This document shows, piece after piece, positions 14,458-64,000 of a DNA stretch of 64,000 nucleotides. The notes under the pieces are model-generated. The model ran no database searches and was not told the DNA's origin. It saw only the letters and a program-made list of their open reading frames with translations. Location: positions 2,068,768 through 2,132,767 of the forward strand of contig NZ_CP024866.1 in NCBI RefSeq assembly GCF_004136015.1, given 5' to 3'. The position numbers and the translations under genes are program-made. The stretch comes from Pseudomonas sp. ACM7 (GTDB lineage: Bacteria > Pseudomonadota > Gammaproteobacteria > Pseudomonadales > Pseudomonadaceae). Within the stretch, counting starts at the first letter, position 1, and each line of letters opens with the position of its first letter.

Positions 14458-16615
<2,158 letters not shown>

Positions 16616-16807
16616 CGGCCAGTCTAGACACAACTGGCAAAGAACGCCAACACCGCGGTAAACACCATGATGAATGGCGTAATTACAGGATTGTTGCCAT
16701 GCGGATGCCCAACTACACTCGCAACCCATACCCCGCCTTGACGCTGTGCGGGCTGCGCCGTACCTTTGGCGCTCAAATTATCAGCGTAATTTTTTAGGGA
16801 TCGCCTC

Positions 16808-60092: not shown

Positions 60093-60221
60093 TAGCAGCT
60101 GGCGAAGCCTGCGTCCGGCTGCGCAGCAGTCGTAAACCCTGCTTGCACGGTGTGTCTGAAAAATCGCGAGTGCTGATTTGACGACTGCTGCGCAGCCGGA
60201 CGCAGGCTTCGCCAGCTGCTA
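60093..60221. repeat. Perfect 41-bp inverted repeat (third REP-like type)
   Basis: Arms 60093-60133 and 60181-60221 are exact reverse complements, beginning TAGCAGCTGGCGAAGCCTGC. The loop is 47 bp. It lies between rlmJ and the small hypothetical gene and does not share the core of the other two REP types. Confidence 0.92.
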
Positions 60222-60281: not shown

Positions 60282-60605
60282 CTACTCCGAAGGCCGAGCC
60301 TTCAATCGTCGCCCTAACACATCCAGCACATCACACCCATCCCGCAACGGAATGGCACAGAGCAAAGCAAAATCACTAAGGATGAAGGACTGACACTCGA
60401 TCGAACCGCGCATGGACAGGTTCTCCATCACTTGGGTGACGGCGCGAATTCGATAGCTGGCAGCGTCATACAAAACATCCAGCGGCGCTTGGGTGTCGAC
60501 GAACAGGGTAGGCATGTCGTCGCAATTGCTGGTGAGCGCCATGAAGCGGTTTTTGGGGTGGGGGATTGGTTTTTCGTAGGGTGGATCGGGTGTAAATGTT
60601 TTCAT
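60282..60605 (-). CDS. Small hypothetical protein (DUF3077/DUF6124-like)
   Basis: A 107-residue soluble protein beginning MKTFTPDPPYEKPIPHPKNR. The start (TPDPP) and the helical second half (ASYRIRAVTQVMENLSMRG, then DFALLCAIPLRDGCDVLDVL) resemble the small DUF3077/DUF6124 proteins found in many copies in Pseudomonas; the function is unknown. The SD GGAGC lies 7 bases before ATG 60605. It is preceded by a strongly structured leader that may control access to this SD. Confidence 0.65.
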   Translation of the reverse strand: MKTFTPDPPYEKPIPHPKNRFMALTSNCDDMPTLFVDTQAPLDVLYDAASYRIRAVTQVMENLSMRGSIECQSFILSDFALLCAIPLRDGCDVLDVLGRRLKARPSE

Positions 60606-60745
60606 TTGAATTGCTCCAAGGAAAAAATGGAGCTGCCTTAGGCCTTCCTACAGGCTAGGGTGGCAGCTATGCACGGGGTAGGAATATCGAGACCCTTAGA
60701 GCAAAACTCGACCACGCCGAAGCGTGCCCGCGCATAGCCGCCGCA
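60606..60745 (-). promoter_or_regulatory. Candidate structured RNA leader of the small hypothetical gene
   Basis: Read on the minus strand, 60727-60742 pairs with 60662-60677 over 16 consecutive pairs; two of these are G-U wobbles that exist only in the minus-strand RNA. Inside are two hairpins: 60713-60717/60722-60726 with a cUUCGg tetraloop, and 60687-60691/60707-60711. Nearer the gene, 60628-60633 can pair with 60613-60618 and cover the SD. A competing 7-bp stem, 60631-60637 with 60662-60668, would break both of these. Confidence 0.65.
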
Positions 60746-61094
60746 ACTGATCTTACGGACGCACGTTAACGGCCGCAAACCAAGCATCGACGCCAATGTA
60801 GCTCTAACGGTTTCGAAGGGTTCCTACACCCTGCCACTGGAATTTCAGTGACCGCCAAAGACTATCGATGGAGCTCATTTCATACCAGTTCATGGAAACC
60901 GCTACGACTTGAAGGAAACTTCCGACAACATTGCCCAGAAATTTCGCTCAAAAAAGCAAACGTGGCGAAAAACTTCACTGAAGCTTGGCTTGATTTCGCC
61001 ACCTGTTGAATCCACATCCTATAGCTGCCACTCAGCAAAGACAGAATTCGGCCCAGAGTGTGTAAAAACGCCTGCCACCCCCTTGCCGCCGACT
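60746..61094. other. Non-coding stretch upstream of the structured leader
   Basis: About 350 bp without a convincing gene. A plus-strand frame starting at 60909 runs into the antisense ORF at 61095 and has no SD or recognisable product. TGGCGAAAAACTTCACTGAA followed by GCTTGGCTTGATTTCGCCA (about 60962-61001) forms an imperfect hairpin. The promoter of the leader RNA should lie in 60746-60830, but I cannot point to clear -35/-10 boxes. Confidence 0.5.
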
Positions 61095-61778: not shown

Positions 61779-62198
61779 TCACCAACTGGACCGATCTTCA
61801 AGACTCGCTAAAAGAAGATCTTCCTTCCAGGTCTCCTGAGCCAACGAATAGACATCTTGAAGAAATCCACGGGGATCTTCCAATGCATACCACTCGCCAC
61901 GCGGCCAACTCCCTGCATCTTCTTCATCTATATCAAACAAACTCTGAAAATCATAAGACGCATCGCTTAGCTTTTCCGCTAGAAAATCCAGCAGCACGAG
62001 CTTATGTCGATAGGACAGATAACCTAGATTCAAGCTGTATCTTTTGATCAGCTCCGCTCTGTCAAAACGATCATTAGGATTAAATACTTCCAGTTCTGCA
62101 CCCCGAGTTTCCTCGCGATCATAGACATCAAAGACGCCGATAAACCACATCAAATCGGGTTGAAATTCTTCATTTGAAAATGGATCTCGCAACATCAT
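61779..62198 (-). CDS. Probable immunity protein for the Rhs toxin tip
   Basis: A 139-residue, strongly acidic protein (LSDASYDFQSLFDIDEEDAG near residue 90). Its ATG overlaps the stop of the rhs gene by 4 bp (62195-62198) and GGAGAG precedes it, so it is translated with the toxin. No known family is recognised by eye. Position, size, acidity and low GC are the standard marks of cognate immunity proteins of Rhs/CDI toxins. Confidence 0.7.
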   Translation of the reverse strand: MMLRDPFSNEEFQPDLMWFIGVFDVYDREETRGAELEVFNPNDRFDRAELIKRYSLNLGYLSYRHKLVLLDFLAEKLSDASYDFQSLFDIDEEDAGSWPRGEWYALEDPRGFLQDVYSLAQETWKEDLLLASLEDRSSW

Positions 62199-64000
62199 TT
62201 TCTCTCCGAAGGAAAAGCAGTAAAAGGCCGCAGCACATTATCCTTATCGAACTTAACTTCAAACCAATTCAGATCTTCATTTAGTGTCGGGTTACGAGCG
62301 TCTTTCTTGTTCGGTTTATAACCACGCCCGGCCCCAGGAAGCTCCATCCTTACGATCGGATTTTTATTGTGGTCCTTCCCTGTATGCGGGCTCAAACCTA
62401 ACGCCTCCCTTGTCATAGCTTTATTCAATGCCCCCAAATGCATACGCCAGTTTCTGAATTGAGAGCTCAAGTTCCCTCTAGCGCCTTTCGGAACCTCACC
62501 GGTATGAGGATCGGCCCCATTATCTGCTCGTTGTTTGAGCGCTTGGTCAGATATTTCTGAGCTGTGTTTTTTTACTGTGTGCATATCATATTTTGCTTCC
62601 ATTTCTTTAACACGCCGCTTCGCGTTCGCCTCAGCCAACTCATCAATCCGCGCCCTCCGCTGATCACCTGTCAGCTTCGGCAGCGCTGGCTCACCCTCAT
62701 CAACCCTAACGCCTGCCGTATCATCCGGCGCCCCACACCCAGGCTTGTTCGGTGGCGGGCAATTCCCGCTCAACCCCAACGGATCAACCCACCCCGTCGG
62801 ATTCGGCGTGTACTGATACTGGTTCAGCCCGCCCGCCAACTTGATCGGATCTGGCGTCAGATACCGTCCAACCTCCGGATCATAGTACCGATGCCGGTTG
62901 TAATGCAGACCACTCTCGGCGTCGAAGTACTGCCCCTGAAACCGCAACGGTTGCTCGAGCTGCTCTCCCCCGCCGAACGCCAGGCGGGTGACCTTGCCGT
63001 AGGCGTTGTACTTCGCCGACCACACAATCTCGCCACCAAAATCCGTCAGTTCCTGCGGCGTGCCCAGGTGATCGAGCTGGTAGTAAAACGGGCAAGCCTT
63101 GCGTGGGCCTTTGCCGTCGAGCATGGCCAGTGGGCGGAAGCTGCCCGGTTCGTAGAGGTAGCTGCGGTAGTGCTCGCGGCTGCTTTCGGCGACGAGGTTG
63201 TCGCCTTGCCAGAAGAACTCGGTGGTGTGGCCGTCGACGGTTTTGGCGATGCGGCGGCCGAAGGCGTCGTAGCGGTAGTTGGCGCTGCGGCCGTCAGGGG
63301 TCGTGACGCCGACCAAGCGGTGCTGGCAGTCGTAGCGGTATTCGGTGACGAGTTTTTGCCCGGTGCCGCGGCGTTCGCGGATGAGGTTGCCGAAGGCGTC
63401 GTAGTCGTAGTGGCGGTCGCTTTGCATCAGCAGGCGGTTGCCTTTGACGGTCGCGGCGCCGGGGCGGTCCTGCATCAGCAGGTTGCCGGCGGGGTCGTGG
63501 GCGAAGCTTTCCGGTGGGTCGTCTCGGGTGTGGCGCACGCGAGTCAGGCGATTGAGCGGGTCGTACTGGTAATTGCGTTGGCCGTGACGGGTGTCGGCGA
63601 TGCTGTCGAGATTGCCGTTGGCGCTGTAGGCATAGTCGCGGCGATACAGCGGTTGGTGCTGTTGACTGACAGCGTGGGCTTTCAATCGGCCCTGATCGTC
63701 GTAGGCATATTCGCTGAGCAGTTGCCCCTGCTGGCGTTGCTGTTCGCGGCCGAAGGCAAATTGGTGGGTGGTGAGTCGCGCGCCGTTGAGGTCGATGGCC
63801 GTGAGTGCGCCGCCCTTGGCGTGGTGGTAATCGAGTTTGCTGCCGTCCGGCAGGCGCAGGCGATTGAGTTGGCCGCAGGCGTCGTAGCCATAGCGCAAGG
63901 TGCCCCAGCCCTGATGCTCGGTGATCAGGCGGTCCTGTCGGTCGTATTCGAACTCCAGCGGATGATCGTGACCGTCATCGACGCTGACCAGCCGGCCGAG
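62195..64000 (-). CDS. Rhs-repeat protein, 3' part with polymorphic toxin tip
   Basis: The frame stays open to base 64000, so the N-terminus is outside the window. The visible part has many YD repeats (YRYDAFGRRIAKTVDG, YDYDAFGNLIRERRG, YQYDPLNRLTRVRH) and the core-closing region RYYDPEVGRYLTPDPIKLAG ending in GWVDPLGLSG, near 62765-62785. About 195 residues follow as the tip. The tip shows MHTVKKHSS near its middle and ends with WFEVKFDKDN and PFTAFPSERK. A His-x-x-x-Lys-His motif with a terminal Thr-Ala-Phe strand recalls bacterial RNase A-like CDI toxins. GC content falls sharply in the tip. Confidence 0.9.
   Translation of the reverse strand, partial: LGRLVSVDDGHDHPLEFEYDRQDRLITEHQGWGTLRYGYDACGQLNRLRLPDGSKLDYHHAKGGALTAIDLNGARLTTHQFAFGREQQRQQGQLLSEYAYDDQGRLKAHAVSQQHQPLYRRDYAYSANGNLDSIADTRHGQRNYQYDPLNRLTRVRHTRDDPPESFAHDPAGNLLMQDRPGAATVKGNRLLMQSDRHYDYDAFGNLIRERRGTGQKLVTEYRYDCQHRLVGVTTPDGRSANYRYDAFGRRIAKTVDGHTTEFFWQGDNLVAESSREHYRSYLYEPGSFRPLAMLDGKGPRKACPFYYQLDHLGTPQELTDFGGEIVWSAKYNAYGKVTRLAFGGGEQLEQPLRFQGQYFDAESGLHYNRHRYYDPEVGRYLTPDPIKLAGGLNQYQYTPNPTGWVDPLGLSGNCPPPNKPGCGAPDDTAGVRVDEGEPALPKLTGDQRRARIDELAEANAKRRVKEMEAKYDMHTVKKHSSEISDQALKQRADNGADPHTGEVPKGARGNLSSQFRNWRMHLGALNKAMTREALGLSPHTGKDHNKNPIVRMELPGAGRGYKPNKKDARNPTLNEDLNWFEVKFDKDNVLRPFTAFPSERK

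Follow-up and report, generated by a model that had tools for sequence, protein, structure and literature searches.

C4 antisense RNA is a type of regulator first known from the immunity of phage P1. The P1 record annotates, in this order, a1, b1, C4, the a2 and b2 target sites, and the genes icd, ant1 and ant2, and its C4 scores 68.8 bits. P1 genetics are treated in the P1 record and in two papers (PMC12197685; PMC8201110), and C4 acts in trans in P1/P7 immunity (PMC12197685; PMC5320573). Both c4 antisense RNA and c4-a1b1 are motifs of Proteobacteria and phages (PMC2864571). Acinetobacter baumannii has many C4-like sRNAs, with processing at a GG motif reported for those of Group 1, and C4 motifs have been predicted in Pseudomonadales among others (PMC5320573). 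C4 and isrK are reported as one transcriptional unit in Burkholderia (PMC4603805) and are listed side by side for Xylella (PMC12189769). Mutational work on the isrK leader of prophage Gifsy-1 found that two folds exclude each other and that the short IsrK activates in trans (PMC4825925).

A search by title and abstract, with subscription journals mostly beyond its reach, returned no paper on chromosomal C4 units with DUF6124 or DUF3077 genes. The leader described here lies in the window, the whole stretch of 64,000 nucleotides of Pseudomonas DNA that was analysed. As read from its sequence, it is very probably part of a C4 antisense unit that lies on the chromosome and is of the same kind as phage P1 immI, likely repressing the neighbouring gene.

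A C4 antisense RNA in the leader of a small gene

An Rfam scan of the window (4227 families), the kind of search advised in the original prediction, gave a sole match at the site, C4 antisense RNA (RF01695), at 60748-60656 on the minus strand with 57.1 bits (gathering cut-off 45). The earlier statement that no known class fits this fold is wrong because RF01695 matches over its cut-off. The fold belongs to the C4 antisense RNA family, an assignment that is well supported; it is a real structure and no new class. The unit is a new chromosomal variant of a known RNA family, a known device used unusually. For its genome the window C4 is low-scoring (others reach up to 89 bits), and many of these C4 loci may already be in Rfam. 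Searching a longer stretch with a looser threshold placed c4-a1b1 (RF03163) at 60865-60813 on the minus strand (37.3 bits, E 5.6e-8), below its gathering cut-off of 46.7. In 60560-61000, C4 and c4-a1b1 were the only matches up to E 5, one of the grounds on which a metabolite riboswitch was rejected; isrK (RF01394) gave no match over the same interval and threshold. The parts of the unit are as follows.

60861-60866, minus strand: putative -10 box GATAGT (weak; a similar hexamer stands at the same place in other units, by eye)
60813-60865, minus strand: c4-a1b1 element, comprising a 5' hairpin (60851-60834) and the a1 hairpin (RF03163, below gathering)
60821-60827, minus strand: a1 (GTAGGAA), complementary to a' in C4
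60801-60808, minus strand: b1 (GTTAGAGC), complementary to the P3 loop of C4
60656-60748, minus strand: C4 antisense RNA (RF01695)
60727-60742, minus strand: 5' strand of C4 stem P1 (fold; covariation in 30 units)
60662-60677, minus strand: 3' strand of C4 stem P1, which can also pair with anti-P1 (fold)
60713-60726, minus strand: P2 hairpin with cUUCGg loop (fold, covariation)
60687-60711, minus strand: P3 hairpin, whose loop carries b' (fold, RF01695 alignment)
60694-60704, minus strand: b' (UUGCUCUAAGG), antisense to the ribosome site (11 pairs, one G-U)
60678-60684, minus strand: a' (UUCCUAC), the 3' junction strand, antisense to a1 and a2 (7 pairs)
60642-60655, minus strand: a2 hairpin GCC-UGUAGGAA-GGC, with a2 (60651-60645) in the loop
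60631-60637, minus strand: anti-P1 (GGCAGCU), which can pair with the P1 3' strand; its 3' end is shared with the Shine-Dalgarno hairpin
60611-60621, minus strand: b2 target (CCUUGGAGCAA), complementary to b' and containing the Shine-Dalgarno GGAG (60617-60614)
60282-60605, minus strand: putatively controlled gene, 107 aa, no family, start codon at 60605

The naming of the 3' junction strand as a' and of the second hairpin's loop as b' follows the P1 record by analogy. The stretch originally marked out was too short, as the unit extends up to about 60866 on the promoter side, where a1/b1 lie, and down through the gene to 60282. Evidence for the -10 box is weak because a generic sigma-70 scan of the unit found no promoter match; the box adjoins the start of the RF03163 match, and the a1b1 hairpin begins about 10 nt downstream of it. 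Other units of this genome, such as L002, L004, L008 and L020, are preceded by a long promoter region that is conserved and contains the inverted repeat GTAGGCAACG...CGTTGTAGC, which may be an operator common to them. Between a1/b1 and C4 the window unit has no terminator-like hairpin; such a terminator occurs in phage P1 and in 7 of the 30 C4 units of the genome (own units hereafter), where shuffles predict 1.55 of 31.

A structured minus-strand leader RNA before a small gene had been predicted, and it is borne out, direction included. The 16-bp stem P1 joins 60742-60727 to 60677-60662, with G-U at the fourth and twelfth pairs, and closes a junction that holds the cUUCGg hairpin P2 (60726-60713) and a second hairpin, P3 (60711-60687), so that every element of the described fold is present on the minus strand. 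The 181-nt RNA reaches -71.6 kcal/mol; dinucleotide shuffles average -52.07 (sd 4.02), which gives a z of -4.86, and 0 of 200 did as well. Across the 30 own units, 13 of the 23 predicted pairs of stem P1 and P2 are changed on both sides with pairing kept, and P3 is absent from their consensus fold. Downstream, a small hairpin (60633-60629 with 60617-60613, minus strand) covers the Shine-Dalgarno GGAG.

Complementarity of C4 to the ribosome site

The b' loop (60704-60694) is complementary over 11 bp, one of them G-U, to 60621-60611, across the Shine-Dalgarno. This main pairing, of the P3 loop with the Shine-Dalgarno region, was missed by the original prediction, whose mutually exclusive Shine-Dalgarno pairings stand. 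At -19.3 kcal/mol, the b'/b2 duplex of the window is the best among 30 C4 RNAs tried on the window target.

Is this complementarity specific to each unit? Permutation over the 30 own units gave -14.4 kcal/mol for the loop with its own ribosome site and -9.0 with foreign ones, and -12.0 against -9.3 for the junction strand with its own and foreign post-stem hairpins (p<=0.00005 for both); the upstream a1 and b1 copies likewise prefer their own C4 (p<=0.00005 each). The crossed controls were null in the same units, both for the loop with the post-stem hairpin (p 0.83) and for the junction strand with the ribosome site (p 0.75). The test was widened to 57 units, namely the 30 own units (the window unit being L028), 16 units of relatives, phage P1 and another 10 units homologous to that of the window. 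Twelve of the 28 loci L034-L061 were omitted from the pairing tests (orientation not found in 2, start codon not found in 10), L071 was set aside because its type duplicates that of L070, and L062 and L076 are copies of own units. Over the 57, own pairs reached -15.3 kcal/mol against -9.5 for foreign pairs at the loop and ribosome site and -10.3 against -6.8 for a'/a2, with 0 of 20000 permutations as good in either case, and the crossed controls were again negative.

The strongest test of target-specific pairing is the set of ten homologues, window included, which are about 70-80% identical to the window over alignable parts. Seven lie at rlmJ (the window unit, L064-L067, L069 and L070) and three (L063, L077 and L079) elsewhere, in one genome; the C4 segment of L070 gives no blastn alignment to the window C4. 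In this set the loop varies widely and the ribosome site varies with it (own -16.0, foreign -9.5 kcal/mol; 0 of 20000 permutations), the own partner being best in 8 of 10. The a'/a2 pairing is too uniform among the ten to separate own from foreign (1254 of 20000).

The own a' ranks only tenth of 30 on the window a2. When b'/b2 and a'/a2 energies are summed, the own C4 is among the top five of 30 for 28 targets; cross-talk is possible because the sum makes it the best for only 17 of the 30. Judged from sequence, insulation between units is good, if imperfect. The window target is best served by its own C4, both on the loop and on summed energy.

Alternatively, the C4 could act in trans on a main target elsewhere, in an incoming phage or another unit, with the neighbouring gene as a relic. 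Such an action has its precedent in P1/P7 immunity (PMC12197685; PMC5320573), the own C4 falls short of the best match for 13 of the 30 own targets, and a C4-like pattern appears in 112 stretches of viral contigs, some without the C4 fold; in 34 of the 79 examined (drawn from 80 of the 112), the protein that comes next resembles those of own units. However, the loop and the neighbouring Shine-Dalgarno change together in homologous units, and no other C4 of the 30 serves the window target better on the loop or on the sum. We regard this alternative as unlikely and favor repression of the neighbouring gene.

Predicted alternative folds of the leader

The original prediction also paired the 3' strand of the closing stem, GCTGCC (60667-60662; with its neighbour, AGCUGCC at 60668-60662), with GGCAGCU (60637-60631). 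This pairing can form and overlaps the Shine-Dalgarno hairpin. The P1 3' strand favors its own leader over foreign ones by a small difference over the 57 units (-13.1 against -12.0; 0 of 20000), and the 30 own units by themselves show the same preference (8 of 20000 permutations reach it). Counted as better than shuffles when no more than 10 of 200 match it, anti-P1 passes in 17 of the 30 own units, including the window unit (1 of 200); for phage P1, 94 of 1000 shuffles are as good. With the P1 3' strand available, predicted Shine-Dalgarno accessibility rises from 0.26 to 0.39 (p 2.8e-6), a gain that holds against shuffled strands (p 4.6e-7) and foreign strands (p 0.009). It goes up by more than 0.2 in 19 units and down by that much in 3, with the window unit at 0.00 to 0.12. 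The proposed alternative is therefore upheld in part: it covaries over the 57 units and opens the ribosome site in predictions, but the ten homologues are too uniform to discriminate (5025 of 20000).

The upstream a1/b1 copy bears on the same fold. When each unit is folded together with its own 140 nt of upstream sequence, the C4 stem becomes less likely in prediction, with a chance of 0.57 compared with 0.94 without that sequence; foreign pieces (six per unit) leave it at 0.88 (p 8.5e-6). The chance falls below 0.5 in 23 of 57 units with own and 3 of 57 with foreign upstream sequence. For the window unit it falls from 1.00 to 0.61; phage P1 (0.97 to 0.96) and many units show no such effect. 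In the window unit the predicted chance of stem P1 varies with the assumed 5' end: it is 0.00 from 60858, 0.05 from 60852 and 0.99 from 60812, which leaves out a1, and for longer 5' ends 0.36 from 60870 and 0.74 from 60888, equilibrium folding of 270 nt being a guide only. In the best fold from 60856 (-112.3 kcal/mol), a1/b1 hold b'/a'.

In these models the sequence carries two coherent states. In the first, C4 would be folded and anti-P1 free to hide the Shine-Dalgarno; in the second, C4 would be opened by a1/b1, and the P1 3' strand would be able to hold anti-P1. An extra RNA switch of this sort is plausible, if tentative, and its input would be RNA and no metabolite.

The gene, its sister units and their spread

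The 107-aa window protein has no Pfam or NCBIfam match. The gene had been taken as DUF3077/DUF6124-like, which applies to many sister units, where such genes are present, and is unsupported for the window protein, with no Pfam match and weak profile comparisons. At E<=0.001, 436 proteins are related to it, and among the 120 listed those with a species name are from Pseudomonas. Its AlphaFold2 model (pLDDT 74.4, pTM 0.57) consists of two long helices, with no PDB match at E below 0.001. Eight unit proteins were scanned: two are DUF6124, one DUF3077 and one Bro-N (L024), and four, the window's included, have no significant family. A single superfamily for the unit proteins was unsupported by profile comparison, made with shallow alignments of 3 to 8 sequences.

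One sister protein (L014; own genome 1431647-1431734) is 95% identical to that of the window, and its C4 loop and ribosome site differ. Its loop reaches -6.2 kcal/mol on the window ribosome site, against -19.3 for the window's own C4, and its a' reaches -15.9 on the window post-stem region, against -9.2 for the own a'. It looks as if genes and regulators had been exchanged between units.

Several other features of the window surround the unit or lie farther off. An RHS-repeat protein is encoded at 62195-63898 (minus strand), and downstream of it, just upstream of the C4 unit, stand two small ORFs without a family, possibly immunity genes. On the other side, a REP-like inverted repeat lies at 60093-60221; it matches itself in reverse complement and is found again in L065, L077 and L079. 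A TPP riboswitch lies at 16511-16616 (minus strand, 84.3 bits), and two TwoAYGGAY RNA matches occupy opposite strands within about 360 bases (2180-2244, plus; 1888-1952, minus).

The own genome (6.60 Mb, one contig) holds 30 C4 units, 29 over the cut-off and one at 42.2 bits; two further matches (L031 and L032; E 6.87 and 9.11) were treated as noise. RF03163 matches at E<=0.01 in 25 of the 30, all except L005, L011, L013, L015 and L025. In every unit an ORF starts 132-149 nt downstream of where the C4 match begins, and in 27, the window unit among them, it runs for 82-173 codons. The ORF of L001 is cut to 22 codons, and L003 and L009 have a leader ORF of 28 and 34 codons, respectively, with a stop codon that shares one base with the start codon of a DUF3077 gene (ATGA). 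This overlap in L003 (own genome 2326028-2326114) and L009 (1504802-1504888) suggests translational coupling. A C4 unit lies upstream of 15 of the 20 DUF6124 genes of the genome and of three of the five DUF3077 matches. Among six DUF6124/DUF3077 genes without C4, L100 retains a stem remnant (by eye) and L101 a weak a1b1-like element (24.2 bits). A PrrF RNA match (L099 1643-1791, 156.3 bits) adjoins a DUF6124/DUF3077 gene without C4.

Copy number reaches up to 42 among the 38 genomes searched, own included. At least 230 of 249 same-genus genomes have one C4 or more, the counts over the 249 being floors with at most 16 candidates scored per genome. At the rlmJ site, the 1500 nt upstream were inspected in the 29 of 37 relatives with an rlmJ match: 7 hold a C4 over the cut-off, 1 the gene without C4 and 21 neither, so the unit at this site is of limited age. 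No nucleotide match to the leader was found in 50,697 phage records and no match to the window protein in 72,556 plasmid records; 15 IMG/VR contigs, of viral or flanking host DNA, encode a relative of it, 64-74% identical in the best segment. Many C4 units on viral contigs (L122, L138, L148 and others in L104-L183) precede a conserved protein, about 52 aa long, with no counterpart among the 30 own-unit proteins.

Could the unit be a decayed prophage remnant with no present function? The C4 family is known from phages, the window unit scores well below the best of its genome, genes without C4 exist, among them L100 and L101 with their traces, and few relatives carry C4 at rlmJ. A remnant is nevertheless very unlikely: pairing between loop and Shine-Dalgarno is kept in homologues despite sequence change, frames of at least 82 codons stand at the expected start in nearly all own units, and the protein has its hundreds of relatives. 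A metabolite-binding riboswitch, in which the three-way junction would bind a ligand and shift between two folds, accounts for the junction, the mutually exclusive pairing and the Shine-Dalgarno hairpin, and is extremely improbable for an RNA that scores as C4 with no riboswitch-family match up to E 5, whose P3 loop and junction strand differ from unit to unit and match their own target by complementarity, where a binding pocket would be conserved, and whose sister units precede different protein families.

How the unit may work

The favored reading, a C4 unit that represses its neighbouring gene, would operate as follows. One transcript, with a probable start near 60858, would carry a1/b1, C4, a2, b2 and the 107-aa gene. 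The C4 segment, which folds in silico with covariation, would probably be excised by RNase P, by analogy with the P1 and Acinetobacter papers. By sequence complementarity, b' would pair with the b2 Shine-Dalgarno region and a' with the a2 hairpin just past the stem, and translation of the gene would thereby be blocked. A second layer is plausible, in which a1/b1 would take hold of b'/a' within one RNA molecule and C4 would be opened; the freed P1 3' strand would then pair with anti-P1 and expose the Shine-Dalgarno. As predicted by folding, capture by a1/b1 together with release through anti-P1 would give the leader an RNA-controlled on/off choice.

A bolder reading, which we consider quite unlikely, is that such units are domesticated phage-immunity RNA switches, present by the dozen on Pseudomonas chromosomes, with fast-diverging specificities and with bistable leaders that form a self-reinforcing, RNA-only memory. 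Without free C4, a1/b1 would capture b'/a', C4 would stay unformed and the gene would be read; existing C4 would occupy the a1/b1 of a new transcript, allowing a new C4 to fold, so that more C4 accumulates and the gene stays off. If this were true, a foreign C4 target, such as that of an entering phage, could trip the memory.

With repression of the neighbouring gene, the units would link many small, uncharacterised genes of Pseudomonas (DUF6124, DUF3077 and others) to a single known regulatory RNA and give a rule testable unit by unit, that a loop change goes with a ribosome-site change. They would also provide, within one cell, a natural collection of antisense pairs that number in the dozens and are partly insulated, and offer a way to probe the purpose of the upstream a1/b1 copy in P1-type immunity regions.

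Comparison with known systems

The closest system is immI of phages P1 and P7, with the same RNA family and the same order of a1, b1, C4, a2, b2/ribosome site and gene. Differently to P1 immI, the window unit is chromosomal, one of about 30 copies, and has the gene of a 107-aa protein in place of icd/ant. P1-type control of icd and the antirepressor ant was not found: the window gene has no family match, and Bro-N occurs once, in L024, among the eight unit proteins scanned. The anti-P1 pairing and the a1/b1 competition are predicted in own units and absent in P1. The overlap of leader ORF and gene in L003 and L009 recalls icd/ant in P1 and orf45/anrP in Gifsy-1.

The isrK-orf45-anrP leader of Gifsy-1 (RF01394) has two exclusive folds, and its short upstream RNA acts on the read-through mRNA (PMC4825925). 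In P1 and in 11 own units, matches to the isrK model fall on the a1/b1 region, none of them reaching the cut-off; unlike Gifsy-1, the window unit has no isrK match and no terminator-like hairpin. Mapped by nucleotide numbers, Gifsy-1 fold A looks like a1/b1 capture and fold B like a C4-type stem. Fold A is the silent one in Gifsy-1 (PMC4825925), the opposite sign to the switch proposed for the window unit. The CI RNA of phage P4 with seqA/seqC, likened here by description only, is a processed RNA flanked on both sides by target sites in its own transcript, and it acts by transcription termination (PMC4825925).

The Group 1 C4-like sRNAs of Acinetobacter baumannii are likewise present in many copies per genome and have a variable target-specific segment (PMC5320573). 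Their targets are left open in the accessible parts of that paper, whereas most copies in the present genome match the ribosome site of the next ORF downstream.
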